Assembly: GCA_020350365.1 (NCBI GenBank)
Contig: CP070712.1
Coordinates: 237,758 to 274,821 of the forward strand
DNA: 37,064 nt
Origin: Thermoplasmatales archaeon
Lineage (GTDB): Archaea; Thermoplasmatota; E2; DHVEG-1
Direction of reading: 5' to 3'
This document shows, piece after piece, positions 7,107 through 28,476 of this stretch (its first letter is position 1; the number at the start of each line of letters is the position of its first letter). A program made the position numbers and the translations under genes. A model generated the notes under the pieces. That model worked only from the letters and a program-made list of their open reading frames with translations, ran no database searches and was not told the origin of the DNA.

Positions 7107-7493
7107 TTAATATTTTGAAGGGCATCCAATCTGGATTGTTTTTGATTCAATATGTGTTGTGTTTGATAAAAAAATTCCAGATACTACGATGGTTTCATTA
7201 ACACCAAAACCCTCAGGATACCAACTTGTATGTGTTACATTTATTGCATAGTTATTATTAATAGAATCTACAAGAGTAAAATTTCTGGATGTACTAGTCC
7301 ATTCTGTTACAATTCCAGTGACTTCTAATTCTTGACCATCAAAGCTACTTGACTTTTTAAGAATCTCTGAAACATCATAGATTTTCCCTGGGACCATTCC
7401 CCAAAGAAGAAGAGCTAAGATTATAACCACTATAAATACAACAATTACAATTTTTATTTGTCCTTCAGAGATTTTTCTTATTCTTTTTTTCAT
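7107..7493 (-). CDS. ccmE: CcmE heme chaperone, CxxxY type
   Basis: 128 aa. An N-terminal helix (residues ~13-33) anchors an outward OB-fold domain (VTGIVTEWTSTSRNFTLVD). The protein ends in GCPSKY: the heme-binding HxxxY of most bacterial CcmE is replaced by CxxxY, the variant known from archaea and some Desulfovibrio-type bacteria. CcmE takes heme from CcmC and passes it to CcmF. It is the last gene of ccmABCDE, and its start overlaps the end of ccmD by 29 nt in another frame. The chain stops directly after the Tyr, without the flexible tail seen in bacteria. Confidence 0.93.
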   Translation of the reverse strand: MKKRIRKISEGQIKIVIVVFIVVIILALLLWGMVPGKIYDVSEILKKSSSFDGQELEVTGIVTEWTSTSRNFTLVDSINNNYAINVTHTSWYPEGFGVNETIVVSGIFLSNTTHIESKTIQIGCPSKY

Positions 7494-8310: not shown

Positions 8311-8979
8311 TCAATCTCCTAAAATATAGTCAATCAATAGATAACCAATAGCAAGGAAGACAACATCAAACATCAATATAAATCTTACCTCTTGCATAAC
8401 ATCAAAAAGATGCGCTCCTTCAAATATTTTTGATGTGGCACTAATAGCAGATATTACAATTGTGAAAAGTAAAATTGGTACTAAAAGTACTGGAAGCATA
8501 ACTTCACTTTGAGAAAGATTGGAAGATATTGCAGAAATTATATTTCCAAGAGCAGCAAAACCTATAGTTCCGATAATTATTAAGATAAAAAGAGCCACTA
8601 GATCAGGAGTAGCAATAGAAAAAAATACAAAGAAAATAAGAAGAGAAAAAAGCTCAAGAAGGAGAATAACTAGAAAATTAGAGAGAAACTTACCAAAATA
8701 AATTGAAGAGTTTGATATTGGTGCAAGTAAAAGACCTTCACATGTACCTTCTTCTAATTCACGTTTGTATGTTGGAGATAAAGAAAACATACCGCTAAAG
8801 AAAAACGTAATCCAAATAATAGGAGACGCAATTAAGAGTAATGAAAAATCAATAATTGAAAAAGCGAATCTAAAAGAAGCAATAATCATAACTGAAAGTA
8901 AAAGATAATTATTTATCATCTGTTTGTTCCTAAATTCGATTTTAATTTCTTTTAGAAAAATTGTTTTTATAGCATTCAA
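8311..8979 (-). CDS. ccmB: CcmB heme exporter permease
   Basis: 222 aa with six predicted helices. The N-terminal FLKEIKIEFRNKQ and the central YKRELEEGTCEGLLLAP correspond to the conserved CcmB motif containing the cytoplasmic coupling region. It is the membrane subunit of the CcmAB ABC transporter, whose ATP hydrolysis releases holo-CcmE. Its start overlaps the ccmA stop (ATGA, 8976-8979). Confidence 0.94.
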   Translation of the reverse strand: MNAIKTIFLKEIKIEFRNKQMINNYLLLSVMIIASFRFAFSIIDFSLLLIASPIIWITFFFSGMFSLSPTYKRELEEGTCEGLLLAPISNSSIYFGKFLSNFLVILLLELFSLLIFFVFFSIATPDLVALFILIIIGTIGFAALGNIISAISSNLSQSEVMLPVLLVPILLFTIVISAISATSKIFEGAHLFDVMQEVRFILMFDVVFLAIGYLLIDYILGD

Positions 8980-9692
8980 TTTTGTTCCCTCAGTAATATA
9001 TCCTTGTATTTTTTTGAAAAAGTATCGATTTTTTCTCTTTTTGTCTCGTAGACTATTTGTCCATTAGATAGAATTCCACTTCGTGTAGCAACTTCAAAAC
9101 CTTTGCTTATATCATGGGTTATAAAGAAAAAGGTTTTCCCCCTTTTATTTAATTGAATAATAATATCATTTAAAATTTCTTGAGCTCTAATGTCTAATCC
9201 AGCATATGGTTCATCTAAAAAAATAAGATCTGGATTATGTAGTAGAGCTCGTGCTAGTGCAAGTCTTTGTTTCATACCCCTTGAGAAATTACCAATACGG
9301 TCATGAGATCTGTGATATAATCCAATTTCCTTAAGTAAATTTTCAATTCTTTCTTTTTTATTTTTAATAGAATAAAGATTCGCATAAAAATTTAAATTTT
9401 CCAGTGCTGAAAGATCGTTATATAAGTAAGATTGATGAGACATAAATCCGATTAATGCTCTGATTTGCTTTGTTGAGTGTCTTCTAATTATTTCGCCAAA
9501 TAATGATAACTCTCCTGAATCTGCGTATAGAAGAGTCGATAGGATTTTTACTAAAGTAGTTTTACCTGCACCATTTGAGCCATACAAAATATATCTGTCT
9601 CCCTTTGTAATATTGAGATTAATATTTTTGAGTACTTTTAGTCGTCCATAGGATTTTGAAATGTTTTTAGCTGTTAATATGTTGTCATTCAT
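8976..9692 (-). CDS. ccmA: CcmA heme exporter ATPase
   Basis: 238 aa ABC ATPase. It has Walker A GSNGAGKT (38-45), signature FSRGMKQRLALARAL (136-150, a variant of LSxGQ), Walker B LIFLDE (156-161) and H-loop His193 (ITHD). It is the first gene of ccmABCDE and overlaps ccmB by 4 nt. Taken alone it resembles many ABC ATPases; the neighbouring ccmB and ccmC fix the identity. Confidence 0.93.
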   Translation of the reverse strand: MNDNILTAKNISKSYGRLKVLKNINLNITKGDRYILYGSNGAGKTTLVKILSTLLYADSGELSLFGEIIRRHSTKQIRALIGFMSHQSYLYNDLSALENLNFYANLYSIKNKKERIENLLKEIGLYHRSHDRIGNFSRGMKQRLALARALLHNPDLIFLDEPYAGLDIRAQEILNDIIIQLNKRGKTFFFITHDISKGFEVATRSGILSNGQIVYETKREKIDTFSKKYKDILLREQN

Positions 9693-11963: not shown

Positions 11964-13367
11964 TTACTTTTTAATTCTTTTTCTCAATAGAATTAATGCT
12001 ATTCCAATTGCCACTATGAATGCTACAGCTTCAAAACCAGGTGTACCATCATCTTCAGGTATTGGTGTACTGTCAACAGCTGCAATAACTTCAAGAGCTT
12101 TAGTGTTGGCATCCAACATTAATGCTTCTGCATAATCTGGATTGTGTGTTCCATTACTTCCATCCGCAGTTGCCAATCCAAAATTCCATAATGCTTCGTA
12201 ATATGTATCGTTCATACCCGTCTTGGTCCAAATCTTATTGTCATCTGCATAAGCCTTCTTTGTTTTCATAGTTTCAATATTTGGGCTAACAGTAGCATAA
12301 GTATTAGCATAGTTTTCATGTTGTTCTTCGATATCTTCCAGAGCAGTTGTAATGTTATATTCTGGTAGGGCAATAACTCCATCATGACATTCAACGCAAG
12401 CCTCTGGTTGCGGGACCCAAGAATGTCCTTGTTTATATTCACTAGCATTAGTTCCATGTGGTGAATTATAATGGTGACATTCAACACAATTTACATCAAC
12501 CATGTATGTTGTATCCTCTACATCAACACCAACGTTTCCTGCACGCATCTCTACCTGCGGGTGATGAACATCTTCACTTCCAAGCGAAGAGGTAGAATAA
12601 TGACATGCCTCACAAATTTCATCTTCTGATAATCTTAACTGATAATGATTTGTATTAGTTGCTTCAGGATGAGGATCATGACATGCTCCACAAGTAATTG
12701 TCCAAGTAACTTCCTCAGGAATTTCAGTTAAAGGATCACCTTCTGCATCTGCAATAAATCCCTCTGTACTTCTACAACTCATACAATCAACTCTCTGAGC
12801 ATATTCAGGTGCCTCATTTGCATGAGCAGATTCCTCCCATCCAGGAACTATTTCATCACCATACTGACGTGTCCCACCATGACAGCCAGCATCATCAGTT
12901 CCACCACAGCTACCAGCATAATGATCAACAATTTGATTGATATCTGCTTTTTTATCAGAACCACTAATATGTTCGCTTCCAGGACCATGGCAATTCTCAC
13001 AGCCAATTCCTAAAAGATGAGCATTTTCATTAGAATCCCAAGCATAAGCAGGGTCATAACCACCTTTATCTATTTCATTATAACCGATAGTATGACATGG
13101 TAACATAGAATCCCCACAACGAACATATTTATCTGTTAGAACATCATTATATAACCATTCAGAATCATCAAAAAAATAAATTCCGTGAGATGTTTCATCC
13201 CATAATTCATAATTTGTTGGATGGCACCCTTTACAAGAATCAGTTCCCAAATAGGTAGCTTCTGATTGATCTGCTGTTACAGAGTTTATAGATAAAAAAA
13301 TAAAAACAGCAGCAAAAACAACAATCATTATAGATATTTCTAATATTTTATTCTCCTTCACCTTCAT
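11964..13367 (-). CDS. Cell-surface multiheme cytochrome c (c554-like) with PGF-CTERM
   Basis: 467 aa. Signal helix ~10-32, then the c554-type pattern. Canonical CxxCH sites are at 45-49, 123-127, 226-230, 252-256, 294-298 and 324-328. Three positions where relatives carry heme motifs look altered: C84-X6-C91-H92 in RCGDSMLPCHTIGY, C154-X7-C162-H163 in CGGTDDAGCHGG, and CMSCR at 195-199 with Arg for the ligand His. So 6 hemes are secure and up to 9 possible. The C-terminus is PGF (443-445), a hydrophobic helix and RKRIKK, a typical PGF-CTERM signal processed by archaeosortase A and giving lipid anchoring at the cell surface. TATA-like TTTAATATATAG lies ~25-35 nt before the ATG. The substrate or partner is unknown. 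Confidence 0.9.
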   Translation of the reverse strand: MKVKENKILEISIMIVVFAAVFIFLSINSVTADQSEATYLGTDSCKGCHPTNYELWDETSHGIYFFDDSEWLYNDVLTDKYVRCGDSMLPCHTIGYNEIDKGGYDPAYAWDSNENAHLLGIGCENCHGPGSEHISGSDKKADINQIVDHYAGSCGGTDDAGCHGGTRQYGDEIVPGWEESAHANEAPEYAQRVDCMSCRSTEGFIADAEGDPLTEIPEEVTWTITCGACHDPHPEATNTNHYQLRLSEDEICEACHYSTSSLGSEDVHHPQVEMRAGNVGVDVEDTTYMVDVNCVECHHYNSPHGTNASEYKQGHSWVPQPEACVECHDGVIALPEYNITTALEDIEEQHENYANTYATVSPNIETMKTKKAYADDNKIWTKTGMNDTYYEALWNFGLATADGSNGTHNPDYAEALMLDANTKALEVIAAVDSTPIPEDDGTPGFEAVAFIVAIGIALILLRKRIKK

Positions 13368-13429: not shown

Positions 13430-13723
13430 TTTTATCAAAACATATTTTTTTATAATTCGATACTACGATTTTATAAAATATACAAAGTTTTATCTAGCGT
13501 ATTTAAGAAGGAAACTAAAGAAATCAAAGCGATAGCTAAAGTCTTTAAGCAAGGTGGAATAAAAAATCGTTATATTATTAGGGGATTAGAGATTGAAACT
13601 GATAAACCAAAATCAGATTTTGGAACAAATACTGCAGCTCCTATAGAGATTTATATATCTAGAATTGGAATGCCAAAACGGGTTGAACTCTATATTAGTT
13701 TTCTAGAGTTCAGGATTTTATAA
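13430..13723 (+). pseudogene. Open frame without start codon, possible gene remnant
   Basis: The gap between the surface cytochrome and the flavoprotein genes carries a plus-strand frame open from 13430 to a stop at 13723. The segment from ~13478 reads like real protein (KKETKEIKAIAKVFKQGG, then RYIIRGLEIETDKPKSDFG and PIEIYISRIGMPKRVEL), but no ATG, GTG or TTG opens it. Its end overlaps the 3' end of the flavoprotein gene on the other strand by 34 nt. I do not recognise the family. It may be a decayed or truncated gene; chance is possible. Confidence 0.35.
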
Positions 13724-15129
13724 GGATCAAGAGCAGTTTTTATATCATCCATCAAAAAGACTCTTCCACCATTTATCTTTTTAATATTTCTCCTAAAAAG
13801 AAGTCCAAATTCCCCCGGTCTTCCACCGACTCTTAATATTTCATCTGTTAATTTTTTCTCTAATGCCATAGAGGTAATGTTTTTTATAAGATTTTGTTCA
13901 TTTGAAATTGCATATGTCATAAATAAAACTGTATTTGGATCAGTGATATAGCCGACAATTCCTCCTTTCATCTTTAGCATTTTTAATGCCCTTTGCGATC
14001 CTTTAGTTAAATCGATAAACCTTGGAAGAGGGCAATATCCTTCTGCAACAATCAAACCTGGCCCAAGACTGTGCTCTCTAGACTCGAAGAATCGTTCAGT
14101 CCACTCATGATTTGCGAACTCTTTAGTTTGTTTCTTACCTCCATTATTTTTCATGATTTCTTCGGTTTTTTTCTCTTCAATGTCAATAATTCTACTATTT
14201 CCACTAAAGATAATATTTACCACAGCTCCCACTTCAGGAACATCCTTTCCTAAATCACGCAATATGTCAAAATGTGTACCATCAAGAAAAGCAATATGGT
14301 AGGGATTTATATTAGTCCTTGTTATAGATAGGATTGCTTTACCTGCTTCTTCTAAATCGGGAAAGACATATGTAGAAGGGCGAATCTCTTCCGGGGTTGG
14401 AAAAAGTTTTAGAGTCATCTTTGTAATAATTCCTAATGTTCCCTCAGATCCAACAAAAAGATCAGAAAGGTTGTATCCAGAGGAGTTGTTTACCACATTC
14501 TTAAAGCCTGTATTAATAATATTTCCATCTGGTAAAACGACCTCCAATGACCGGATTTGTTGATCAATTCCACCGTATTTATAAGATCCTATGCCAACGC
14601 CACCAGTATTTACCCAATCACCTACACTTGCTTCCGGTGCATTATTTGGATAGGCACCAATCAAAAGGTCTTCATTTAAGATAATATCATACAGTTTCAT
14701 CCAGTTAACTCCGGGTTCTACTGTCACATAAAGGCTTTCTTTATTAATTTCTAATATTTTCTGCATATCTTTCATATCTAGCAATATGCCGCCAAATTCT
14801 CTGGCTGTTTTACCCATAACTGTAACAGTTATATTGTTTTTAACTGCAAATTTAATAATTCTAGAGACATCCAAAGAATTTTGGGGTTTGACTATAACAA
14901 CTGGAACAGTTTTGAATTCAGTAGAAATTTCTTTTGATAGGGGGGCTATATCATCGTTATACAAAAGATCCTCAAGTTTGCTTTCCCTGATATGATCTTT
15001 ACCAACGATGTTAGCTAATTTTTTATAAATTTCTGACTTGACATGTTTGTTCTTTAAAAGATTTGAATCTTTTTCGACTTCATTTGGTTTGTCTTTTGAC
15101 TTTATCACATGAGAAGTATAGAAAAACAC
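13690..15129 (-). CDS. FAD-linked oxidase, D-lactate dehydrogenase / GlcD family
   Basis: 479 aa. An FAD-binding PCMH domain covers ~60-240 (VIVKPQNSLDVSRIIKFAV, EPGVNW, NTGGVGIGSYKYGG, FVGSEGTLGIIT). The C-terminal half is of the FAD-oxidase C type and ends near KTALDPYKILNSRKL, as in D-lactate dehydrogenases and glycolate oxidase GlcD. Such enzymes oxidise D-2-hydroxyacids and pass electrons to quinone or cytochrome. There are no cysteine clusters, so it is the flavin subunit only. The start is a GTG at 15127-15129; the next in-frame Met is far inside the FAD domain. No signal peptide, so cytosolic. It is divergent from the 25-heme cytochrome, so a link to respiration is plausible but not shown. 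The exact substrate is not predictable. Confidence 0.82.
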   Translation of the reverse strand: MFFYTSHVIKSKDKPNEVEKDSNLLKNKHVKSEIYKKLANIVGKDHIRESKLEDLLYNDDIAPLSKEISTEFKTVPVVIVKPQNSLDVSRIIKFAVKNNITVTVMGKTAREFGGILLDMKDMQKILEINKESLYVTVEPGVNWMKLYDIILNEDLLIGAYPNNAPEASVGDWVNTGGVGIGSYKYGGIDQQIRSLEVVLPDGNIINTGFKNVVNNSSGYNLSDLFVGSEGTLGIITKMTLKLFPTPEEIRPSTYVFPDLEEAGKAILSITRTNINPYHIAFLDGTHFDILRDLGKDVPEVGAVVNIIFSGNSRIIDIEEKKTEEIMKNNGGKKQTKEFANHEWTERFFESREHSLGPGLIVAEGYCPLPRFIDLTKGSQRALKMLKMKGGIVGYITDPNTVLFMTYAISNEQNLIKNITSMALEKKLTDEILRVGGRPGEFGLLFRRNIKKINGGRVFLMDDIKTALDPYKILNSRKLI

Positions 15130-15426: not shown

Positions 15427-17472
15427 ATGGATCTTTTCAACTCTGCGATAGTATTAATACCAATTGCGTTAATTTGGACTGTTGTTGTCTATCTTATTTT
15501 CAAAAAAATGATTGGTCAACAAAGAAAAAAAGACAAAGAAATGCTTCTAGGTGGTCTTCTCATATTTGTTGCTCTAGCAGCTATTGTTGTTGTAGGGACT
15601 GCAGTTTTTGAAACTGTTGAAAGCCCTGAGTTTTGTGGAACATTCTGCCATGTTATGGAACCATATTATGAATCCTATATTTCTCCAAGTAATAACATAA
15701 TGATGTCTGCGCATACAAATGAAGATATAACTTGTTCAAATTGCCACAATGAACCAGGTATCATTGGAACAATTCAAGGTCTTACTTCTGCAATTCCTGA
15801 GATGTATATCTATATTACTAATACTTATGATATTAATGATTTACATGGACATGTTTCCCGTGAAGCTTGTTTAAAGTGTCATGATTATGGTGTAAAAAAT
15901 GCTAAAGAACCAAAGCAAATTAACTCAATTGGAGGTTTGGTTGTAAATCCTCATGAGGATGATATTAAATGCTCAGAATGTCATGATTTTCATACAAAAG
16001 GTATTGGTTTAACTGAAAGTGCTTGTTCTGTTTGTCATGGAAGTTCAATTGAAAACTTTGAAGATATGATTGAAAAACATGGAATTAGAGCTGGAGAAAA
16101 CTGTATGGATTGTCATGATAGAGATCATCCTAAAAATGCAAAAATATCATTCGCAGAATTTCCATCACTTATAAACACTGAATTCTGTTCAGATTGTCAT
16201 AATGATGATGTTGAAAGACTTAACAAGCGACCCCATAAAATGAAGGTTTGTACAGATTGTCATAATGAGCACCAAGAACTTAGAATCGATTTTAGTGATT
16301 GTGGTGGTTGTCATAACCCTCCATCTAATCATGATACATCAACTACTAGTTGTTCATTATGTCATGATGGAGTAACATATATTCATTTAAAATCTTCTAC
16401 AGTTTCAGAGGATTTGTTCTCAGATCTTGAATGTTCAAATTGTCATTCTATTGAAAGTTCTGCTTATGAAGCAAGTTTCGATTCTGCTGCTCTTGAAATT
16501 TATGGAGATGAAGGATGTATCAGCTGCCATTCTGATCATGTAACAAAAAATGTTCCACATCAAAAAACAGCACCTTATAATGCTTGCGATAGTTGTCATA
16601 AAAATTATGATTCAGATAGTTCAGTTCATGATCGAACTGACATAAAATATTTAGGATTTTTAGGTATCACAAATCAATTTTGCTCTGATTGTCATGAAGA
16701 TGAGACAGACAGATTTAATGTTGGTATACATTCCGGAAGTGAATGTACAGATTGTCATGGTGAACATGAAATACGAGTAGATTTCAAAAATTGTGATAGT
16801 TGTCATAAAGAAACTCCAGATTGGCATGACACATCAACAAGTGATTGTTCAAATTGCCATATTAAACTTACTAAAATTCATTCTGAATCAGATGGAGATT
16901 CAGGCGGGACAACATCACCAGATGACAATTGTATAAGTTGTCACAACAATGGAATTGGACCATCAATTCCTCAAGAAGTAACAACAACGGTTGGAACCAT
17001 AGTTAATCCACATACTGGAATAAAGGAGTGTAATGTTTGCCATAAAGCTTCAAACCATCAGAGTGGAGATGTATTTGATGGTCTTACTCAAGATGCCTGT
17101 ATAATATGTCATGGTACTGCAATAGATAATTTTGAAGATATGTTATCAGATCATAGTAATAGAGTAGGCGCGGAATGTATGAATTGTCATAACAGAGATC
17201 ATCCGTCTGATGCAAGGATTCCATTTTCCGAATATCCTTCGATAATTAACCTAGATTTCTGTTCGGATTGTCATGCTGAAAAAGTAACGAGACTTCAAAA
17301 CGAAGATCATAACTATTTTACAGACTGTACTATTTGTCATGGTGAACATAATACTATAAAAATAGAATTTGATAAATGTATATTATGTCATGGTGATAAT
17401 CTACCATCTAACCATGATACATCTCTAATTGGTTGTACTTCATGTCATACTGATGTATCAATGATTCATTAG
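15427..17472 (+). CDS. Membrane-anchored 25-heme-motif cytochrome c (NapC/NirT-like anchor)
   Basis: 681 aa. Two helices (residues ~6-27 and ~40-61) precede a NapC/NirT-like start: ESPEFCGTFCHVMEPYYESY with a CX3CH motif at 70-75, then CSNCH at 103 and CLKCH. The rest is almost all heme motifs; I count 24 CxxCH plus the one CX3CH, about one per 27 residues. Two seven-motif modules (~15931-16390 and ~16991-17470) and a four-motif partial copy (~16660-16890) share the order FCSDCH, C[TD]xCHxEH, CxxCH, HDTS, CxxCH, IH. NapC/NrfH proteins oxidise membrane quinols and feed multiheme partners; here the anchor is fused to an extended heme wire. The cytochrome-b-like gene follows after 45 nt. No catalytic heme motif (such as CxxCK) is seen, so it is probably an electron conduit. 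Confidence 0.92.
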   Translation: MDLFNSAIVLIPIALIWTVVVYLIFKKMIGQQRKKDKEMLLGGLLIFVALAAIVVVGTAVFETVESPEFCGTFCHVMEPYYESYISPSNNIMMSAHTNEDITCSNCHNEPGIIGTIQGLTSAIPEMYIYITNTYDINDLHGHVSREACLKCHDYGVKNAKEPKQINSIGGLVVNPHEDDIKCSECHDFHTKGIGLTESACSVCHGSSIENFEDMIEKHGIRAGENCMDCHDRDHPKNAKISFAEFPSLINTEFCSDCHNDDVERLNKRPHKMKVCTDCHNEHQELRIDFSDCGGCHNPPSNHDTSTTSCSLCHDGVTYIHLKSSTVSEDLFSDLECSNCHSIESSAYEASFDSAALEIYGDEGCISCHSDHVTKNVPHQKTAPYNACDSCHKNYDSDSSVHDRTDIKYLGFLGITNQFCSDCHEDETDRFNVGIHSGSECTDCHGEHEIRVDFKNCDSCHKETPDWHDTSTSDCSNCHIKLTKIHSESDGDSGGTTSPDDNCISCHNNGIGPSIPQEVTTTVGTIVNPHTGIKECNVCHKASNHQSGDVFDGLTQDACIICHGTAIDNFEDMLSDHSNRVGAECMNCHNRDHPSDARIPFSEYPSIINLDFCSDCHAEKVTRLQNEDHNYFTDCTICHGEHNTIKIEFDKCILCHGDNLPSNHDTSLIGCTSCHTDVSMIH

Positions 17473-17517
17473 AATTGAGATATATGAAAAAAGTTGGAAA
17501 AGGATTGATTAAGACAA

Positions 17518-19746
17518 ATGTCCAAAAATAAAAGCTCAGATACAAAAAAGATTGATAAATTGCGAAAAATTTTGGATAATCATAATGATCCAGAGGTTAA
17601 AAAGGATAAATCTCTAAATTCAATACATAGAAGGTTATCAGCAAAAGAACCGTTAACACCTAGGAGAATAAATACTTTGCAAGATTCTTCACCTAAGACC
17701 TTGAAACCTAAATATATTATTTATAAAAGAGAACCTGAAATTGAACAACCTAAAAAAGAACCCATTAAAACAAAAAATCGAATTGATATAATCAAAGAAG
17801 AACAAATCAAAAAAGATGTTTCTAAAAAAAATGATCTGATTGAGATTAAAAAAATTGAAATCCCTGTACCAAAATTTTTAAAAATTGTTCCTAAAAAAAC
17901 AAAAGAACCACCACTTTTTACAGAATCTGAGAAGAAACCATCATTATCTATTGAAGAAAAATTTGAAGAAATTAAGAGTGTACCAACTGAAGAAAAATTT
18001 GAAGAAATTAAGAGTGAACCAGCTGAAGAAAAAATTGAAGAAATTAAGAGTGAATCAACTGAAGAAAAACCAAGTGATGAATTATTATTTTGCGGTGAAT
18101 GTGGAACAAAACTTAAAAAAGGAGAAAATTTTTGTGGCGAATGCGGAAAAAATATTTCAACAACTAAGGCAGTAAAATTAACTACAGAATCAACTGCAGA
18201 ATCAACTGAAGAGGATGTTGTTAGTACTGCTGAACAGCAGGATGTCGAAAGGACTGATGAATCAGAACTTGAGTTTTATAAGGTAATACCTGAGGATAAA
18301 ATAAAAGAATATAAGGATGTTCTTGATGAAATCGGAGAGTTATCTAAAGTTCAAGAATATGATAAAAAATTATCAGATATTACAGATAAAAAAACTCTTG
18401 AGCACAAAATAATAAAGACTAGAAAGTCAGAGGAAAAAGAAGAAGATGAATTAATTATCGAAAAAGTAAAACCTGGGCGAAGAGTTTCAAAAAAAGAAAT
18501 TACATCTAAAGATAAAATAAGGTTATTTCACCCTTTAGTTGTTGCTGAAATGTGGTTATTTACAATAATTCTTGGAGTACTCTTCATATTAGGTATATTT
18601 TTGATAAGAGATTGGCTTTTTGATAGTTTTGGAGTATACGGTGAGAAATTCATTCCAACAATTGATGGTGCATTTGATTTACATTTATGGTTTGGTTTTG
18701 CTTTGATGATTTTTGGATTACTTCATATAGTTATCCATATGCTTTCTAAGAAAAAAAAGGATATTTTAACTAAACAAACAGGTAGAGACTTTAAGGCATT
18801 TTTACATTCGGGTATATATCTTATTGGACTTGCTAGACGAGAGGATTATGGAACTTCAGAGAGATATAATGGACGACAGAGGATTGTTTATATAAGTCTA
18901 GTTTACATCCTTAGTTTGACTATTCTAACAGGTATTCTTTATTATTTTCATTTAATAACCCATGATATTTCAATGGTTCATGTTATTCCAGCAGGATTAA
19001 GCATCATGGTTCTTCTATTTCATTTTCTAATAACAATTAGAAAACATGATTTAATTGCATTAAAAAGTGCTTTTTTAACTGGAAAAATACCTATGTGGTA
19101 TGCAAGGAAGAATCATCCTATATGGTATGAAAATTTTAGGTCCAAAAGAGAAAAAATCACTGGAAAAATGCTTGATCCAACAATAAGTCAAACAGATAGG
19201 TCCTTAATTAAAGGAGGTAGTAATCTTGCTAATGCTGTTGCAAAATTCGCTCTTCTTCTTGATGATTCTCCAGACAAAAATATGATTGAAGCAATTACTG
19301 AAGAGCTTCGGAATAAACATAGTTCAGATGAAATGCAGAGGATAATTGAACTTGCTGATGAATTGGATAAGGAAATAGAGATAGAGGTAAAACAAGAAGA
19401 AAAGGACATAGGAGAATCCATAGAACCTGAAAAATCATCTGTAACAAAAGAAGAACCCGGACAATCTACAGAAGAGCAGAAAGAGGGTATTGAATCTAAT
19501 GCTGAAGAACTAAAAAAAGTGGAAAAAATCGAAGTATCACAATCAGAAGAAAAAATTGAGGGCCAATCTAATGAATCCACCCCTGGTGAAAAATCTGATG
19601 TGGAACCAAAAGCAATCGAAGAACCAATGAAAGAAGAAAAAACTGAAGATGTCAAAAAACCAAAGGTAAAAGAAGAAGTCGATGAAATTAAAAAGAAAGG
19701 GGAAAAAACAGAATTATCTGAAGACGAAGAAAAAAAAGAATCTTAA
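17518..19746 (+). CDS. Cytochrome b (FdnI/HydC-like) with long charged tails and zinc ribbon
   Basis: 742 aa. Residues 1-335 are Lys/Glu-rich and probably disordered, containing a 12-residue repeat (EEKFEEIKSxPx, three copies) and a zinc ribbon at ~191-210 (FCGECG...FCGECG). Residues ~335-540 hold four helices like the di-heme cytochrome b subunit of formate dehydrogenases, hydrogenases and thiosulfate reductases, with candidate heme histidines in DLHLWFG (~388), GLLHIVIHML (~402, 406), FLHSGIYLIG (~430) and MVHVIPAG/LLFHFLIT (~487, ~502). The rest is an acidic and Lys-rich tail. It follows the 25-heme gene by 45 nt. Role, by family and position: membrane electron transfer between a quinone-type carrier and the heme wire. 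The extended tails are unusual for this family and might bind cytosolic partners. Confidence 0.82.
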   Translation: MSKNKSSDTKKIDKLRKILDNHNDPEVKKDKSLNSIHRRLSAKEPLTPRRINTLQDSSPKTLKPKYIIYKREPEIEQPKKEPIKTKNRIDIIKEEQIKKDVSKKNDLIEIKKIEIPVPKFLKIVPKKTKEPPLFTESEKKPSLSIEEKFEEIKSVPTEEKFEEIKSEPAEEKIEEIKSESTEEKPSDELLFCGECGTKLKKGENFCGECGKNISTTKAVKLTTESTAESTEEDVVSTAEQQDVERTDESELEFYKVIPEDKIKEYKDVLDEIGELSKVQEYDKKLSDITDKKTLEHKIIKTRKSEEKEEDELIIEKVKPGRRVSKKEITSKDKIRLFHPLVVAEMWLFTIILGVLFILGIFLIRDWLFDSFGVYGEKFIPTIDGAFDLHLWFGFALMIFGLLHIVIHMLSKKKKDILTKQTGRDFKAFLHSGIYLIGLARREDYGTSERYNGRQRIVYISLVYILSLTILTGILYYFHLITHDISMVHVIPAGLSIMVLLFHFLITIRKHDLIALKSAFLTGKIPMWYARKNHPIWYENFRSKREKITGKMLDPTISQTDRSLIKGGSNLANAVAKFALLLDDSPDKNMIEAITEELRNKHSSDEMQRIIELADELDKEIEIEVKQEEKDIGESIEPEKSSVTKEEPGQSTEEQKEGIESNAEELKKVEKIEVSQSEEKIEGQSNESTPGEKSDVEPKAIEEPMKEEKTEDVKKPKVKEEVDEIKKKGEKTELSEDEEKKES
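17953..18069 (+). repeat. 36-bp in-frame tandem repeat inside the cytochrome b gene
   Basis: Three copies begin at 17953, 17989 and 18025, followed by a 9-nt fourth copy. Each encodes EEKxEEIKSxxx. They differ at a few positions, so the repeat is not brand new. It lies in the disordered N-terminal tail, where length change would be tolerated. Confidence 0.85.
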
Positions 19747-19853
19747 TGCGATATCAAGAAGTTAATATTGAATTTGTTATGATAGTGTTAGGTGTATTAG
19801 TTTTTTTCTGGAAAAACTGCTATCTTTTATATGTTTTTAATGGATATCCATGA
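19746..19853 (+). CDS. 35-aa membrane micro-protein coupled to cytochrome b
   Basis: An ATG at 19746 uses the last base of the cytochrome b stop (TAATG). The frame encodes 35 residues: MRYQEVNIEF, then a single hydrophobic helix (VMIVLGVLVFFW), then a short polar end YVFNGYP. The overlap implies translational coupling. Small single-helix subunits are common in respiratory complexes (CcoQ, CydX and similar), and this could be one. No sequence family is recognised; a chance ORF remains possible at this length. Confidence 0.45.
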   Translation: MRYQEVNIEFVMIVLGVLVFFWKNCYLLYVFNGYP

Positions 19854-20784: not shown

Positions 20785-22509
20785 ATGCATAAACACAGTA
20801 TTTTTTTAAGTAAGACTATAGTTATAACTATCGTTTTATTGTTTATTGGAGCTAGTATTGTACCAATCATTAGCGGATATGACAAAAATTCAAGCATTCA
20901 ATTAAATAAAGAATATCCCACGAATCTTCCATTGAATGATGACTATATAAATGCTTATTGGAAGTTTGATGAATGCTCTGGAGACACTGTTGGAGATTCA
21001 TCAGGCCATAATTATGATGGAACAAGGTATGGGGCTACTTGGACAACTAGTGGATATTCTGGATGTGCTCTTGAATTTGATGGAGTGGATGATTATGTTG
21101 ATTTAACTGATCATGTTAATGGAATAGCTGTGAATAAAACAGATGATTATATCATTTCATTTTATTTTAAATCAACACAAACTATCAAGGGTATTATTTT
21201 AAGTTTAACAGGTTATAAGAATGTTCCAGAGTTCCGTATTGAATTACAACCAAATGGTTCTTTGTTATTTAAAATATGGACGGGTCTATGTGGAATGATT
21301 CTATACTCTGGAACAGATCATAATGATGGACAATGGCACGAAGTTGAAATCTTTTTTAATGGTTTATCTACAGATCCAAAAATGCAGATATATATAGATG
21401 GTTATTTAGAAGGAACCTTGGTGGATTGGTTATGTCCTATTGAATATACTGATTACATTGCGGCATCAATTGGTAGGAGAGCTTCAGATGATACAGGATG
21501 TTATGAGGGTGTAATCGATGAACTTAAATTTATTAAATATGAACAAGGGAATGAACAAAATCCCCCAACAATTAGTGGTCCAACAAGTGGAGAACCTGAA
21601 ATTGAGTATGATTTCACATTTACAACCAGTGATCCTGAGGAAGATGACATATTAAAACTTGAAATTGACTGGGATGATGGAACAATAGATGAAATTTTTG
21701 GACCCTTCTACCCTGGTGAAGTGGTCACTGCAAGCCATACATGGATAGCAGAAGATAGATTTGATATTATAGCTAGATCTGTAGACTCTTGGGATGAAAG
21801 CCCATGGTCAGACCCATATGTTGTAAGAATTGGAAATCAACCTCCAGACAATACGATTATTACTGGACAAAGATATGGAGATCCTCAGGAGCAACTAACA
21901 TACACATTTGTATCACATGACTATGAAGGAGAGGATATTAAATATTTTATAGATTGGGGTGATGGTACTACTACAGAGACAGATTATTATGCTTCTGGCA
22001 CTGAAATAACAGAGGATCACAGTTGGGATGCAAATGATGATTATTCAATGAAAGCTAAGGCAATTGACATAAAAAATAAAGAAGGAGATTGGACATATTA
22101 CCCAATCCGAATAGGGGATCAACCACCAAGCGATCCTAAAATATATGGGGCAGTCCAGGGTTTACCTGGAAATACCTATGATTATGCTTTTATATCTGTT
22201 GATCCTGAAGTTGATAACCTAACATATGAAATCGATTGGGGAGACGGTAATATAGAAACAAATATTGGACCAATTTTATCTGGTGAGATATTAACTCGAA
22301 GTCACTCATGGAATAATACTCGTAATTATATAATTAAATCACGCGCAAAAGATGAATATGATTATTATACAGATTGGTCAGAATTTGAAGTAATTATACC
22401 TCGAAACAAAGGAGTTACTTTTAATGCATTAGAATTGTTGTTTGCGCGATTTCCTATTACGGCTTCATTAATTAGGTATCTGTTTAAATTAGAAATTCAA
22501 GGGAGGTAA
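20785..22509 (+). CDS. Secreted LamG-domain protein with three PKD-like repeats
   Basis: 574 aa. Signal peptide ~10-32. A LamG/concanavalin-like jelly-roll domain covers ~55-255 (YWKFDECSGDTVGDSSGH, LEFDGVDDYVDL, IYIDGYLEG). Three PKD-like modules follow, each with [YF]xIDWGDG or DWDDG and ending in a S/DHSW or SHTW strand. The last ~30 residues carry the tail FARFPITASLIRYLF, of the type shared by several proteins of this window. LamG domains usually bind carbohydrate, and PKD modules act as spacers on the cell surface. The start is preceded by GGGGAG with 9-nt spacing. It forms an operon with the next gene, 4 nt downstream. There is no catalytic motif; probably structural or adhesive. Confidence 0.85.
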   Translation: MHKHSIFLSKTIVITIVLLFIGASIVPIISGYDKNSSIQLNKEYPTNLPLNDDYINAYWKFDECSGDTVGDSSGHNYDGTRYGATWTTSGYSGCALEFDGVDDYVDLTDHVNGIAVNKTDDYIISFYFKSTQTIKGIILSLTGYKNVPEFRIELQPNGSLLFKIWTGLCGMILYSGTDHNDGQWHEVEIFFNGLSTDPKMQIYIDGYLEGTLVDWLCPIEYTDYIAASIGRRASDDTGCYEGVIDELKFIKYEQGNEQNPPTISGPTSGEPEIEYDFTFTTSDPEEDDILKLEIDWDDGTIDEIFGPFYPGEVVTASHTWIAEDRFDIIARSVDSWDESPWSDPYVVRIGNQPPDNTIITGQRYGDPQEQLTYTFVSHDYEGEDIKYFIDWGDGTTTETDYYASGTEITEDHSWDANDDYSMKAKAIDIKNKEGDWTYYPIRIGDQPPSDPKIYGAVQGLPGNTYDYAFISVDPEVDNLTYEIDWGDGNIETNIGPILSGEILTRSHSWNNTRNYIIKSRAKDEYDYYTDWSEFEVIIPRNKGVTFNALELLFARFPITASLIRYLFKLEIQGR

Positions 22510-22513
22510 ATAA

Positions 22514-24442
22514 ATGAAAAAGAAAATTATTGGAATATTTGTTTGTACACTATTAATAATTACAACTGTAATCCCTGCAACAGGAAAAATTAAAACAGAA
22601 CCAAATTCACCATTATTTGCAATTGAAACTTATGTTGATGATATAACTCCATATAATGTTCCATCTTCACCATTAGTTATTTCAGCAACAGGACCAAGTG
22701 ATTTAGATGATGTAACCTTATATTACAGATGGAGTAGTGACAATGTTACTTGGACTGGTATGGAAGAGTATTCAGTTTTCGAAGACTTTGAAACAGGAAG
22801 TCAAAATACTAGTTTGTGGAATACCTATCAGAATGGAGCTGATGCTCGAATTCAGTTTGATTATCCAAATGCCCATGGTGGTAACCATGCCTGTTCTATG
22901 GATGATTACGATTCACAAAACTGGGATTATTCTCTTAACGTAATTTACACAAAATTTGATTTTTCAGGTGCAAATAATATAAATATTGATTTCTGGGAAC
23001 GTGAATGGGGTGATGAATTTCAAGATGAAGAAGAAAGTTGGTCAGGTTGGCAAAACTATGATGTTGTAGCATTTACAAATGATGGTTCAACATGGTATAG
23101 ACTATTTTCAGAGTCTCAATTAAGTGTACAGACATATACTAATTTTCAATATACTTTAAGTGATCACCCAGATTTCTCTTCACCTGTCACAAGCGATTTT
23201 TCTATAGCATTTCAACAATATGACAATGTTCAATTAGTTCAGGATGGTCGAGCCTGGGATGACATCTTAATTGAATATGTATTTGGTGCTCCAAGTGTAA
23301 ATTGGGCTGAATGGATCCATTCTAGCAATCCTGATACAACCTATCCCTGGGGTTGGTCTTTTAACTTCCCAGAGGGTACTGGATATTATGAATTTTATAG
23401 TCTTGGAAAAATAATTGGTCAGGAAATTGAAACCCCTCCATCAGTTGCTGATGCAAGATGTAGATATACTCATAGTCCCGAAGCCTATAACGAGAAACCT
23501 GCTAGTGGTAGTACCGATGTAATAATTCTTCCAGAATTGGAGATATCTATTAGTGATGGAGATGGTGATGATATGGACCTCATTTGGTATAGTAATAGTA
23601 GTGGGTCCTGGAAACCTTTTGAAACCAATTTTGAAGTTGGAAATGGGACATATAGTTTTAAAAATAGCAATTTTAGTGAGTTTGATACCACATATTATTG
23701 GTATGTTACTCTATCTGATAATATCTTTACCGTTGATAGTTCAATTTTCCATTTCACAACTGAAGAAAATCTTCCACCATACACACCAAATGATCCTGAT
23801 CCTGCAGATGGAGAAACAGATGTTTCTATCCAAGAAATATTAACTTGGTCTGGGGGAGATCCAAATCAAGGAGATAAGGTATATTATGACGTATATTTTG
23901 GTACTAGTAGTTCTCCTCCACTGGTATTAGAAAATACACAACAAACAGCTTATGATCCTGGTGATATGGAACTGGAAACTATTTATTATTGGAAGATAAT
24001 AGCTGAGGATACTCAAGGTGAAACAGTTGAAGGTCCTATTTGGAGTTTTACAACTGAAGCAGAATCAAATGCACCACCAACCGCACCAAATATTTATGGC
24101 TCACCGCAAGGACCGCCTGGAGTAGAATTATGTTGGTTATTTGTCTCAAGGGATTTTGATGGACACCAAATTAAATACGTTATCGATTGGGGAGATGGAA
24201 ACACTGAGGAAACAGATTATTATCCTGAAGGATTTGCAGTTGAGGCATGCCATATCTTTGAGGAACTCGGAGATTATGAAATTATAATTCATGCTGAGGA
24301 TGAAAAGGGACTTGCTGGTTTGGGGGATACATTTGAAATAAAAATTCAAAAACCCAGATCAGTAATTCATTCATTACTTCAAAGATTATTTGAACAATTC
24401 CCACTGCTGGAAAAATTACTATTGTTGATAAAGGTATTTTAA
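22514..24442 (+). CDS. Secreted multidomain protein (jelly-roll, Fn3-like, PKD)
   Basis: 642 aa. Signal peptide ~1-25. An Ig-like unit and a beta jelly-roll of MAM/CBM type (FEDFETGSQNTSLWNTYQNG) cover ~35-255. Two Ig/Fn3-like units follow, the second starting PPYTPNDPDPADGETDV, and a PKD unit with YVIDWGDGNTEETDYYPEG. The tail LLQRLFEQFPLLEKLLLL ends the protein and is the same tail type as in the upstream gene. Start: GGGAGG overlaps the upstream stop codon and lies 7 nt before the ATG, so translation is probably coupled. A terminator follows directly. Binding role unknown. Confidence 0.85.
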   Translation: MKKKIIGIFVCTLLIITTVIPATGKIKTEPNSPLFAIETYVDDITPYNVPSSPLVISATGPSDLDDVTLYYRWSSDNVTWTGMEEYSVFEDFETGSQNTSLWNTYQNGADARIQFDYPNAHGGNHACSMDDYDSQNWDYSLNVIYTKFDFSGANNINIDFWEREWGDEFQDEEESWSGWQNYDVVAFTNDGSTWYRLFSESQLSVQTYTNFQYTLSDHPDFSSPVTSDFSIAFQQYDNVQLVQDGRAWDDILIEYVFGAPSVNWAEWIHSSNPDTTYPWGWSFNFPEGTGYYEFYSLGKIIGQEIETPPSVADARCRYTHSPEAYNEKPASGSTDVIILPELEISISDGDGDDMDLIWYSNSSGSWKPFETNFEVGNGTYSFKNSNFSEFDTTYYWYVTLSDNIFTVDSSIFHFTTEENLPPYTPNDPDPADGETDVSIQEILTWSGGDPNQGDKVYYDVYFGTSSSPPLVLENTQQTAYDPGDMELETIYYWKIIAEDTQGETVEGPIWSFTTEAESNAPPTAPNIYGSPQGPPGVELCWLFVSRDFDGHQIKYVIDWGDGNTEETDYYPEGFAVEACHIFEELGDYEIIIHAEDEKGLAGLGDTFEIKIQKPRSVIHSLLQRLFEQFPLLEKLLLLIKVF

Positions 24443-24458
24443 AATCAATTCAACTATT

Positions 24459-24494
24459 AATTTAAGATCTCAATCTTAAATTTCTTTTTTTTTT
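24459..24494 (+). terminator. Hairpin terminator of the two-gene surface operon
   Basis: A perfect 10-bp stem, AATTTAAGAT with ATCTTAAATT, around a CTCA loop (24459-24482), running into a ten-T tract. It lies 17 nt after the stop codon. Confidence 0.8.
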
Positions 24495-24576
24495 AAATAA
24501 TTATAAAAAGATAAGAAATAAAGAAAAAGAAGAAGATATGATTTTGAATATATGCTAATTAAACTCGCCTAATTAT

Positions 24577-24798
24577 TTATTCTGATCCACGAACTTGATA
24601 TTGAGTTTGGTCTTGAGTTTGTGTAAATGTTTGAATTGAGTATCTAAATAATGATTGTACCATGATTTTTTCTTGTGCTTGATCACGACTTTGTGCCTGA
24701 TCTTTTATCTGGGATTGGTTTTGGGATGCAGCACTAACAATTGAAACGGTTGTGAGAAGTAAAATAAGGGCTATACAAAAAACCAAAATCTTCTTCAT
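24577..24798 (-). CDS. Small secreted Gln-rich protein
   Basis: 73 aa. A signal peptide (KKILVFCIALILLLTTVSIV, then SAA) precedes a mature part of ~48 residues dominated by Gln, with QNQSQ, DQAQSRDQAQ and TQTQDQTQYQ. No domain is recognised. Translation is well supported: GGGGGTGA lies 9 nt before the ATG. An upstream short ORF (24795-24866) ends in an ATGA overlap with this start, and the TATA-like TATTTATAAC at ~24887-24896 leaves a leader of about 65 nt. Low complexity means function cannot be guessed; an adhesive or matrix role is possible. Confidence 0.7.
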   Translation of the reverse strand: MKKILVFCIALILLLTTVSIVSAASQNQSQIKDQAQSRDQAQEKIMVQSLFRYSIQTFTQTQDQTQYQVRGSE

Positions 24799-24866
24799 TT
24801 TTCTTTTTCACCCCCTGAAGCTATTGAATTGCTTCCTTTTTTACACATTTTTACCATCCTCCCCAT
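24795..24866 (-). CDS. Possible leader ORF overlapping the Gln-rich gene start
   Basis: ATG at 24866, or at in-frame ATG 24857 or 24848, opens a frame of 17-23 codons, ending MCKKGSNSIASGGEKEK. Its TGA overlaps the ATG of the Gln-rich gene (ATGA). GGGGAGG lies 9 nt before the ATG at 24848, and that spacing matches other genes in this window. It may be a regulatory leader peptide; the sequence is short enough for coincidence. Confidence 0.35.
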   Translation of the reverse strand: MGRMVKMCKKGSNSIASGGEKEK

Positions 24867-25007
24867 TGTTGATTTTTATTAATGTTGTTATAAATACTTT
24901 TTGTGTAAAGTTACAAAAATGAAAATATGTTCCTATACTCTGATTTTAATCATTTATAAAATATTTGATAAGGTGTATATAAAATTAAAAAAAAAGAGAT
25001 TTTTTAT

Positions 25008-26687
25008 CTATTGAATTTCCAAGAGATATCTTATTATTGGAAATACATTTGGAAAAATTTCTATTAATCTCTGTAAAAACTGGAACTTATAAATAAGTAC
25101 TCTTGGTGTATTTAAAACTACATTTATCTCGCAGAAATCAACTGGATTATCTGAGTTTGCTACTTTTATGGAACCAGAAAATTCCATATTTTCATCTGGT
25201 GGTGCAATAACTTCGACCTCGACTGTAATTAAATCACCTGCTAGTAAATCTGTTCCACTCTCTGGATTGAACGTCCATGTTCCCCAATCTGGAAAGCTTT
25301 CAATTTCCCAGTTGAGTAAAGAATCCTCATCACCAATGTTTTTTACTGTAAAATCACCAGTTATTGTTTCTCCAGGTGTAATATTTTCCCAGCTGAGGCT
25401 GCCAGTACAATCTAGATCTGCCACCTTGACAATTCTTTGATAAACATAGGTTGACCCAGAGTATTGCCCATTTTCATCATCATATAAAGCACATATTAAG
25501 GCAAAATCATCTTTCATAAAAACAGCATTTCCAAATTGTTCCCAATATCCACCATCTGGTGGTATCAGCTTTTCTTGTTCAATCCAGTTTTCACCATCAC
25601 GTTTAAATATGTAAGCTGAACCAGAATAATGCCCATTTTCATCATCAAATTGCACTCCAATTAATGCATAATCTTGGTTTATATATACAGCATCCCCAAA
25701 TTCTTCTTCAGGCTCTCCATCCGAAGCAATAATTTTTGCCTGTTGTATCCAACTACTTCCAGTATAGTTAAATATATACACTGAACCAGAATCTTCTCCA
25801 TTATCATCATCACAATGGGCTCCCACTATTGCATATTCTCCATTTATGAAAACAGATCTTCCAAAGTAATCTCCAGTTGCTCCATCTGCAGAAACAAGTT
25901 TCTGCTTCTCAACCCAATTTGTTCCTTCTAATTTGAATATATATGCAGCGCCTACAAAGTCATCACATCTTGCACCTATAATTGCATTATCACCATCTAT
26001 AGATATGCAATAACCAAAATAGGCCCATGTTTTTCCATCCTCTGGAAGTAGTTTTTGTTCTTGATTCCATCTTGTACCATCATATTTGAATACATAGGTG
26101 GATCCCGAAGAATCTCCTAAATCGTCATCATTCATAGCTCCTATAAGGGCATATTCTCCTTCAACGCAAACTGACCATCCAAAATCAATAGCTGAGTTTC
26201 CACCCTCAGGATGAACTATTAATTTTTGTTCCTCACTCCATGTTGTTCCATCTCGTTTGAAAACGTATGCTGAACCTGAAGCTCCTCCTGTGGTTTCATC
26301 ACTTGCAGCTGAGATCAAAGCAAAATCTCCACTAATCGAAACAGAATGGCCGAACCAGTCTCCTTCTTCTCCATCTGATGCATAAAGCTTTGCTTCTTCT
26401 ACCCAATTTTCACCATCAAATTTGAAAATGTATGCAGATCCTGCATTTACAATATCATTAACATCATCCCATCTTGCTCCTATGATAGCATAATCTCCAT
26501 CAATATCTATAGAAAATCCAAACCAGTCATCATATCCACCATCTGATGTAAGAATTTTCTGATACTGAACCCATTCCTCAGTTAATGGTTGGTTCATTGT
26601 TTCATTTTTTATAATTTTTCCAACAACAAAAGTTGCATTTGTTGATAATAGCATACAAATCATTATAACTATAATTTTCTTAGTCAT
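25008..26687 (-). CDS. Secreted seven-repeat FG-GAP beta-propeller protein
   Basis: 559 aa. Signal peptide ~1-24. Seven repeats of ~50 residues follow, each reading K[LI]xxxDG-x4-FG-x-[AS][VI]-x5-[YF]A[LI]I[GC]A and ending SGS[AT]Y[VI][YF]KxDG (e.g. WFGFSIDIDGDYAIIGA). This count suits one seven-bladed FG-GAP/integrin-type propeller. Residues ~425-525 are an Ig-like domain (NITPGETITGDFTVKNIG). The tail is LIEIFPNVFPIIRYLLEIQ, the window's shared C-terminal motif. Repeats carry Asp-rich turns, often Ca-binding in this family. Start: GGAGG is 7 nt upstream. Promoter: TTTTTATACA about 38 nt before the ATG. Surface binding or sensing is likely. Confidence 0.85.
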   Translation of the reverse strand: MTKKIIVIMICMLLSTNATFVVGKIIKNETMNQPLTEEWVQYQKILTSDGGYDDWFGFSIDIDGDYAIIGARWDDVNDIVNAGSAYIFKFDGENWVEEAKLYASDGEEGDWFGHSVSISGDFALISAASDETTGGASGSAYVFKRDGTTWSEEQKLIVHPEGGNSAIDFGWSVCVEGEYALIGAMNDDDLGDSSGSTYVFKYDGTRWNQEQKLLPEDGKTWAYFGYCISIDGDNAIIGARCDDFVGAAYIFKLEGTNWVEKQKLVSADGATGDYFGRSVFINGEYAIVGAHCDDDNGEDSGSVYIFNYTGSSWIQQAKIIASDGEPEEEFGDAVYINQDYALIGVQFDDENGHYSGSAYIFKRDGENWIEQEKLIPPDGGYWEQFGNAVFMKDDFALICALYDDENGQYSGSTYVYQRIVKVADLDCTGSLSWENITPGETITGDFTVKNIGDEDSLLNWEIESFPDWGTWTFNPESGTDLLAGDLITVEVEVIAPPDENMEFSGSIKVANSDNPVDFCEINVVLNTPRVLIYKFQFLQRLIEIFPNVFPIIRYLLEIQ

Positions 26688-26817
26688 TTCATTTCCTCCA
26701 TCTGTAAAATTGAATTATATGTATAAAAAGGAATTCTTTTAATAATTTGTACATGCTGGAAAAATATAACGCAATAATTTTTAATTTGTTCAAATAAACC
26801 CATTTAAAGGCCCTTTT

Positions 26818-28422
26818 TTATCCTCCAATGTTTACATGTACAAAAATAAGTAAGACAAATCCACCTCGATTTTCAGTATCCGAAGATTCAGGTATCTCAG
26901 CAGAAACTGTTATCTGAGTAGGTCCGAATCCTAGAATATACTTTGAATTTATTGTTATATTTCCACCTGCTGGAATGTCAACAATTCCTGTAGTCTCTTT
27001 ACCAATAACGGCTCCACCATCTAGTGTGATTTTCCAGTTAATATTTTTTGCTTCCAAGCCTCCAATGTTTTTAATTTCCGCGCTAACCTTGAACAAACCG
27101 CCCTTTATAGAACCTATCTCAAGTTCAGGTCCTCCAATAATTGTAATTAAAAATGATTCAGACCATTCGCTTTTTATTCCATTTATGTCTTTAGCTTGTG
27201 CTTTAATTTCAAATATGCCAGATTTAGACCAAGTATGACTTATAATTACCTCTTCACCTGATGAATAAGATCCAATCCATCCACTGCTAGTTTCATCTCC
27301 CCAATCAATGTAGTAAAAGACATCGTCTCCATCAGGATCTGAAGTGGTAATAGTAAAATTATATTCTTGCTCAACCTCACCATTCGTTGGGCCTGAAATT
27401 GTTGGAGCATCAGGTGGATTTGAACTTAATTGAGCAAGTATAGCAAGAGTAGCAACAATTAACTTTGAAAATTTTGTAGCATATGTTATATTCATATTCT
27501 CAATAGTATCTTGAGGAGTGTGATAGTAATAGTTAAATTCGTATTCATGGTAAAATACACCATCATATCCATATTCCCAGAAATACCATTGATCACTAGG
27601 AGCTTCACCTAGCACGATTACATCAAGGAATATATAATCATAATATTCTTGACTAATACTTACAATAAGATCACTTATCCACTTAGAAGCTTCATTTTTA
27701 TAAATATTAATATTACTTCCATGAGTAGAAGTAATAGCAAATCCTATCATATCAACATTCAATACAGCTATGATATTTTCATCATTTTCATAAGCCTCTC
27801 TTGCATATTCATGACTACCTAACATCCATTGTTCTTCTCCTGAAAATGCTACAAAACGAATTGTATGATTAAAACCATATTTGCGAAAAATATAAGCAGC
27901 CGACAAAACGGTGGCTACACCAGATGCATCGTCATCTGCTCCTGGACAATTAGATACAGTATCATAATGACCACAGATTAAATAGATTTCATCACTAGTT
28001 TCATTTGTTCCAAATAAAGTAGCTTCTATATTTCTATCAGAATATCCCCCGTAATTCCAATAATGATATCGTACTTCCAAACCCATGTTTTCAAACTCAT
28101 TGTAAATATAATCTCCTGCTTCATGACATGCACTTGTACCGGTTACACGGGGACCAAATGCAGTAATATTTTCTAAATATCCTAAATATAATGTTTGGTT
28201 CATCTGTTGTATTACATTTATAATGAATTCATCGGATGAACCTGATGTGCCTTTCCAATTTTTATAAGAGTTTTCTATCAAAGAGATTCTAAAATTTGAA
28301 TTGATATCTTCAGTTGTTCCAAACGGGATATTTCCAGCAACTGGTTCAAAAGCTACACCAAAAAATAGAATAATTATTACAATTAAAAGGATTTTATTTA
28401 AAAATATTCGATTTTTATACAT
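26818..28422 (-). CDS. Secreted M28-family metallopeptidase with PKD and CARDB-like domains
   Basis: 534 aa. Signal peptide ~8-31. The M28 zinc aminopeptidase domain (~70-330) carries the ligand motifs GHYDT, GADDDASG, SGEEQ, NVDMIG and YHTPQDT, with all five metal-site regions present, so it should be active. A PKD module follows (YYIDWGDE...SHTW), then a CARDB-like beta domain. The protein ends VHVNIGG without the shared C-terminal tail. Secreted M28 enzymes release amino acids from peptides. The promoter element at 28461-28476 matches that of the LamG gene, and GGGAGG lies 9 nt before the ATG. Confidence 0.9.
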   Translation of the reverse strand: MYKNRIFLNKILLIVIIILFFGVAFEPVAGNIPFGTTEDINSNFRISLIENSYKNWKGTSGSSDEFIINVIQQMNQTLYLGYLENITAFGPRVTGTSACHEAGDYIYNEFENMGLEVRYHYWNYGGYSDRNIEATLFGTNETSDEIYLICGHYDTVSNCPGADDDASGVATVLSAAYIFRKYGFNHTIRFVAFSGEEQWMLGSHEYAREAYENDENIIAVLNVDMIGFAITSTHGSNINIYKNEASKWISDLIVSISQEYYDYIFLDVIVLGEAPSDQWYFWEYGYDGVFYHEYEFNYYYHTPQDTIENMNITYATKFSKLIVATLAILAQLSSNPPDAPTISGPTNGEVEQEYNFTITTSDPDGDDVFYYIDWGDETSSGWIGSYSSGEEVIISHTWSKSGIFEIKAQAKDINGIKSEWSESFLITIIGGPELEIGSIKGGLFKVSAEIKNIGGLEAKNINWKITLDGGAVIGKETTGIVDIPAGGNITINSKYILGFGPTQITVSAEIPESSDTENRGGFVLLIFVHVNIGG

Positions 28423-28460
28423 AACATATAGCCTCCCTATATATTAACATCAACTGAGTG

Positions 28461-28476
28461 ATATTTAAATGTTACA
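28461..28476 (-). promoter_or_regulatory. Core promoter TGTAACATTTAAATAT of the M28 peptidase gene
   Basis: An identical 16 nt to the element at 20728-20743, with its far end 54 nt before the ATG. It contains the TATA box TTTAAATAT. Confidence 0.7.

Follow-up and report, generated by a model that had tools for sequence, protein, structure and literature searches.

A linked gene pair for a multiheme cytochrome c and an FdnI-like cytochrome b in a putative extracellular electron transfer island of Thermoplasmatota

The window analyzed here (the whole stretch of 37,064 nt from contig CP070712.1) contains a group of genes for multiheme cytochromes and cytochrome c maturation. Two genes lie in tandem on the plus strand: the first (15427–17472) encodes a NapC-like, membrane-anchored multiheme cytochrome c of 681 aa with 25 heme motifs (hereafter c), and the second (17518–19746), starting 45 nt past the stop codon of the first, encodes a 742-aa cytochrome b (hereafter b) with an FdnI-like four-helix core (18511–19128) and long charged tails. 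A 35-aa ORF on the same strand (19746–19853), which overlaps the stop codon of b (TAATG), is probably not a gene. On the minus strand are located the genes for (i) a decayed GlcD-type FAD oxidase (13690–15129), (ii) an OcwA-like multiheme cytochrome with nine sites and a C-terminal Loki-CTERM-like anchor (11964–13367), and (iii) a complete ccmABCEF set, comprising the ABC ATPase CcmA (8976–9692), CcmB (8311–8979), CcmC (7626–8309), the heme chaperone CcmE, which ends in CPSKY (7107–7493), and the heme lyase CcmF (978–3035). Two small secreted cytochromes are encoded on the plus strand, one with about four heme sites of mixed spacing (5741–6268) and its paralogue (6459–6986); CX2CH, CX3CH and CX4CH spacings occur in this pair, and the last site of the second protein is degenerate (CMCH). 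The region 20785–36982 encodes several large secreted proteins of the PKD/FG-GAP/M28 peptidase type, some of which have in common a C-terminal hydrophobic segment near FPLL/LLKLL that is possibly a surface-sorting signal. An Rfam search of the window found 0 RNAs, and counts of sigma-70-type promoters, which have no meaning in archaea, were at chance level.

The source genome (G000; 1.82 Mb, 64% complete, scaffolds joined with 100-N gaps) belongs to the Thermoplasmatota and is congeneric with SG8-52-3 (LSSG01; G001). Of the 100 places listed by a genome-wide scan for TGYNNNNNNTGYCAY, none but those in the island of the window formed a dense cluster of CxxCH codons. Archaea of the MBG-D/Thermoprofundales type are common and abundant in marine sediment and have mostly been modelled as fermenters or acetogens. 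SG8-52-3 was placed in this group by Zhou et al. (PMC6461988), and the word “cytochrome” is absent from the main text of that paper, the principal one on MBG-D/Thermoprofundales. Multi-heme cytochromes with a possible role in DIET have been mentioned once, for a Thermoplasmatota MAG from Guaymas (PMC10570749); the statement in the initial annotation that a module of this kind is unexpected in Thermoplasmatota was therefore too strong.

The N-terminus of c contains two hydrophobic helices (aa 7–25 and 39–57), and its heme motifs comprise 24 CxxCH and one CxxxCH, the first being CGTFCH. Shuffling of the protein yielded a mean of 0.28 CxxCH and a maximum of 3, so the observed number is far above chance; the 25 motifs and the two-helix N-terminus first noticed are confirmed. 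Outside the motifs c has 26 His residues, all C-terminal to the helices, against 25 hemes, and thus a distal His (bis-His ligation) is possible for every heme. Relatives with 17 motifs have 16–17 such residues past the helices. The loop between the helices contains 6 K/R and the N-terminus and middle loop of b are K/R-rich, which suggests that the hemes of c lie outside and the tails of b inside.

The NapC/NirT-like anchor assigned to c holds only weakly. PF03264 matched aa 39–140 of the window protein with an E-value of 2.9e-4, under the curated cut-off, and matched four of the six members of the c family (best 1.4e-5). In addition, c has two helices, whereas a textbook NapC has a single one, and its first heme site is CX3CH. 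No match to solved structures was obtained with a profile of the 17-heme core. Within c, aa 490–681 repeat aa 150–330 with 46% identity. The motif number is 17 in relatives of the same family (f1), 13 at loci of family f33 and 25 only in the window species. The conserved unit has 13 or 17 hemes, and an added internal duplication (17 + 8) gave rise to the form with 25, so the length of the heme chain is elastic.

The four helices of b, located 45 nt after c as originally described, were confirmed in the ORF within aa about 330–540 (core aa 332–537). They are flanked by tails of 331 and 205 aa consisting of about 45% K/R/D/E; a zinc ribbon (aa 191–214) is present in the window species only and absent from relatives. 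All eight b members matched PF01292 (best 2.9e-11), the window member at 1.1e-6, slightly under the cut-off. The best match of the b profile among solved structures was FdnI of E. coli formate dehydrogenase N (1kqf_C), weak at E 0.02, and the two align end to end with a common C-terminal signature, GK...W...HP.WY. An AlphaFold2 model built from eight sequences was of moderate confidence (pLDDT 62), an earlier one from four sequences being unusable (pLDDT 49). The sole convincing Foldseek match of the eight-sequence model was again 1kqf_C (probability 1.00, E 1.1e-3, TM 0.61). The FdnI-type assignment is thus upheld by both profile and structure searches. A NarI/bc1-type assignment, based on the 14-residue spacing of H58/H72 and H157/H171, was dropped after this match.

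In FdnI the heme ligands are H18, H57, H155 and H169. By alignment, the outer-heme ligands H57/H155 correspond to H58/H157 of the b core, which are invariant. The equivalent of H18 (TM1; core residue 14) is His in f33 and Met or Ile in f1 and in the ETNP sequence, and that of H169 (TM4), H171, is His only in f1, the family of the window. All eight members also share two additional His residues in TM2 (H72 and H76). The full set of four FdnI ligands is therefore not found in b, and the ligand positions switch between lineages. These alignments suggest an FdnI-related fold with an altered ligand set, in which the inner heme may use H72 or H76 together with a His of TM1 or TM4, depending on lineage.

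Conservation of the gene pair, proposed in the initial annotation as a check, was examined in 390 Thermoplasmatota genomes. The b core was detected in seven genomes, as was the N-terminal region of c. In all six genomes with a strong c match, the two genes are direct neighbors and keep a constant order, at seven loci in two families: G000, G001, G028 (bin14, CP070798), G034 (CSMAG_1320), G090 (two loci) and G095. They are separate ORFs at every one of these loci. One genome, G096 (ETNP2_MAG_1), contains b without c. In another, G060, the c match is distant (E 2e-37), and the next gene, overlapping by 4 nt, codes for an unrelated small hydrophobic protein that matches no Pfam family. The pair occurs patchily, in 4 of the about 36 f1 genomes sampled, and G002, a genome of the same genus as G000, lacks it. 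In G001, G028 and G034 the neighbor of b is ccmF, in tail-to-tail orientation, and nothing resembling the 35-aa ORF follows b. The TAATG-coupled frame is indeed present in the DNA of the window but, not being conserved in these relatives, was rejected as a gene for a micro-protein.

The most informative functional clue is the product of 11964–13367, which lay outside the initial annotation of the pair. It gave a match to OcwA (6i5b; E 9e-25), covering the NrfA-like half and nine heme sites, and a second (3e-8) to a Carboxydothermus multiheme cytochrome structure (6qvm), which we take to be OmhA from its molecule name and PMC7829351. It also showed weak matches to the NrfA-type family PF02335 and to an eight-heme nitrite reductase. 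A hydrophobic segment at the N-terminus and a match to Loki-CTERM at the C-terminus, barely above the cut-off, suggest a location on the cell surface. A homologue (44%) adjoins the pair in G090 (L023:5490–7142), and the nine heme sites of the two proteins align, three of them being non-canonical. At the position of heme 5 both have CxxCR, compared to CLKCH in OcwA; NrfA has CxxCK at its active heme. A further site has stretched spacing, CX7CH in the window and CX6CH in L023. In Thermincola, OcwA serves as terminal reductase at the cell surface and has its active sites at hemes 2 and 5 (PMC6703420). The archaeal protein is by homology a probable surface terminal reductase and, encoded next door, a likely outer end for the conduit. 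No such gene was detected in G001, G028 and G034; these either need a different outer acceptor or have assemblies that missed it.

At the other side of the pair, GlcD flanks c and b at six of the seven loci and is followed in G001, G034 and G090 by a CCG Fe-S protein (GlcF/HdrD-like), which scores against TmcB, HmcF, DsrK and GlpC models. The linked cluster of the relatives comprises GcvH, GlcD, the CCG Fe-S protein, one or two UbiA, lipoate ligase and a second GcvH, with an HpaB-family gene in addition in G034; in f33 the pair is linked to GlcD, the CCG protein, UbiA and ccmABCE. In the conserved cluster at L005:1888–10656 and L051:9400–13240 the GcvH-like lipoyl proteins keep the lipoyl-type Lys, and the cluster hints at a lipoyl-carrier-linked dehydrogenase. 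In G096 (L052:9342–16726) the same dehydrogenase module, as a GlcD-FeS fusion with UbiA, occurs next to cytochrome-oxidase-like genes, a setting that appears to be aerobic. Linkage suggests that GlcD, the GlcF/HdrD-like Fe-S protein and UbiA form the inner end of the conduit.

In the window itself, part of the PRGGATW (FAD) loop of GlcD is deleted and premature stops interrupt its C-terminus, so this copy was rejected as a working donor of c in G000. An intact GlcD is encoded elsewhere (G000:C1:1145559–1147067), and so is an Fe-S protein on the scaffold (1067399–1068661), beside UbiA, lipoate ligase and GcvH. Retention of c and b despite the decay of the linked GlcD weakly favors a mobile, shared carrier over an obligatory direct complex. 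As regards the identity of that carrier, MqnA/MqnD of the futalosine route were absent from all tested genomes with the pair, and MenD gave no match above the cut-off in them (these genomes are 64–93% complete, and other routes are possible); the “quinol” donor of the initial annotation is thus unproven. The linked UbiA genes suggest that the carrier may be prenylated. UbiA (PF01040) is greatly expanded in f1, with 6 to 22 copies per genome, and its counts are therefore not diagnostic for quinone; neither is PF00146, since Methanocaldococcus was matched too.

Conserved pairing, an FdnI-type b and a NapC-like c support the respiratory electron-export module that was originally proposed, although its micro-protein is lost and its donor can no longer be taken for granted; the OcwA-like surface cytochrome next door and the full ccm set strengthen this reading. 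The window probably represents a self-contained extracellular electron transfer island, leading from a carrier through b and c to the OcwA-like protein and an outside acceptor. In such a scheme, the cytochrome b with its FdnI fold, the NapC-like base of c, or both would oxidize a carrier in the membrane, a prenylated compound resembling quinol or phenazine. The electrons would then run along the bis-His hemes of c (25 in the window protein against 17 in the conserved core) from the membrane through the pseudo-periplasm to the surface-anchored OcwA-like cytochrome. The outside acceptor reduced by this protein might be Fe/Mn oxide, humics or an N oxyanion, or else a partner cell. Complex formation between b and c, the direction of flow, the carrier and the acceptor are what we infer. 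We counted against export, which nevertheless stays the probable reading, that no menaquinone route was recognized in the genomes with the pair, that three of these genomes yielded no OcwA-like gene, that G096 has b without c, and that the model of b is only of moderate quality.

The strongest competitor, possible though clearly less favored, is wiring without a carrier, in which cytoplasmic GlcD and the CCG Fe-S protein would pass electrons to b and on to the hemes of c. Direct Fe-S to cytochrome b wiring has been proposed for the Hmc/Tmc/Dsr complexes of sulfate reducers. The linkage of GlcD and, in three of the genomes, of a CCG protein scoring against TmcB, HmcF and DsrK agrees with such wiring, as does the failure to find a menaquinone route. 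However, b matches FdnI and not the NarI/DsrM types, c and b are intact in G000 where the linked GlcD has decayed, UbiA prenyltransferases occur within the same cluster, and the GlcD-FeS fusion of G096 stands beside oxygen-respiration-like genes without c. A fuller version appears quite doubtful: a quinone-free archaeal trans-membrane wire leading from a GlcD and HdrD/GlcF-like dehydrogenase, for which the same cluster of MBG-D-like relatives would supply lipoyl H-proteins of its own and a lipoate ligase, through a b with rearranged ligands and a 13–25-heme chain to a CxxCR OcwA-like reductase.

It is unlikely that the OcwA-like protein acts as a reductase of soluble substrates (nitrite, hydroxylamine or a sulfur oxyanion) and not on solid acceptors. 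This possibility is raised by the weak nitrite reductase matches, by the unusual CxxCR at heme 5 common to the window and G090, and by OcwA itself, which PMC6703420 groups structurally with NrfA/c554/MccA and credits with slow nitrite reduction. On the other hand, the best-matching solved structures belong to terminal reductases on the surface of metal-reducing bacteria, and three genomes that have retained c and b yielded no copy of the gene. Inward flow, with electrons taken from a mineral or partner, is improbable: FdnI itself reduces quinone, and the CymA and CbcL/MtoC families have been implicated in both directions (PMC6295460), but the linked GlcD/GlcF are, judging from their families, oxidative dehydrogenases that require an acceptor. 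That the island is a decaying relic or was mis-binned, as the GlcD pseudogene, the patchy distribution and the absence from congeneric G002 might indicate, is very improbable and largely refuted by synteny, since c and b are intact and show 51–71% identity to syntenic loci in three independently assembled genomes of the same family.

If the island exports electrons, some MBG-D-type archaea would be able to respire minerals or partner cells, and the gene pair would offer a searchable marker for metatranscriptomes. Conduits of this type have been reported from methane-eating archaea and from some bacteria, and they are barely described in Thermoplasmatota. No description of the pair was found in the literature, of which subscription journals and preprints were little covered. 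The best reading is that the island is functionally like CbcL/ImcH or the Mco of ANME, yet a distinct variant.

CbcL (with MtoC/MtrH) of Geobacter and relatives, proposed to oxidize quinol in extracellular electron transfer and variable in heme number (3–23; PMC6295460), likewise combines a multiheme c part with a HydC/FdnI-like diheme b. However, CbcL is one fused chain with six helices and without a NapC anchor, whereas the window has separate genes for a c with a putative NapC-like anchor and a four-helix b with tails. ImcH and CymA resemble c in their N-terminal helices, followed by a heme segment that is NapC-like, in c only weakly so, and by more hemes, but have 4–10 hemes and no paired cytochrome b; homologues of CymA, CbcL and ImcH were confined to Bacteria in a 2018 survey (PMC6295460). 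The Hmc/Tmc/Dsr complexes share with loci of the window type a multiheme c, a cytochrome b and an HdrD-like Fe-S protein; the archaeal loci differ in their FdnI-type b, in the GlcD flavoprotein and UbiA, and in that no NrfD was seen. Among monoderms, Thermincola (ImdcA-PdcA-CwcA-OcwA) and Carboxydothermus (OmhA) combine a membrane multiheme quinol oxidase with a surface reductase of the OcwA/OmhA type, an arrangement that the window resembles, and the available parts of the sources (PMC7911101, PMC6703420, PMC7829351) describe no b partner for ImdcA; the archaeal surface protein differs from OcwA/OmhA in its CxxCR at heme 5 and its C-terminal anchor. Mco of ANME-2a/2b, a proposed carrier:cytochrome c oxidoreductase, consists of a VhtC-type b and a 7–11-heme c (PMC9012536) and is, like the window, an archaeal pair with a HydC/FdnI-family b beside a multiheme c. 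As described, the b of Mco derives from hydrogenase VhtC and precedes c, whereas that of the window follows c and is divergent and FdnI-like. The c of the present family is NapC-like with 13–25 hemes, and its neighbors are GlcD/CCG/UbiA. The island would be a second archaeal b/c conduit next to Mco, one of separate construction.
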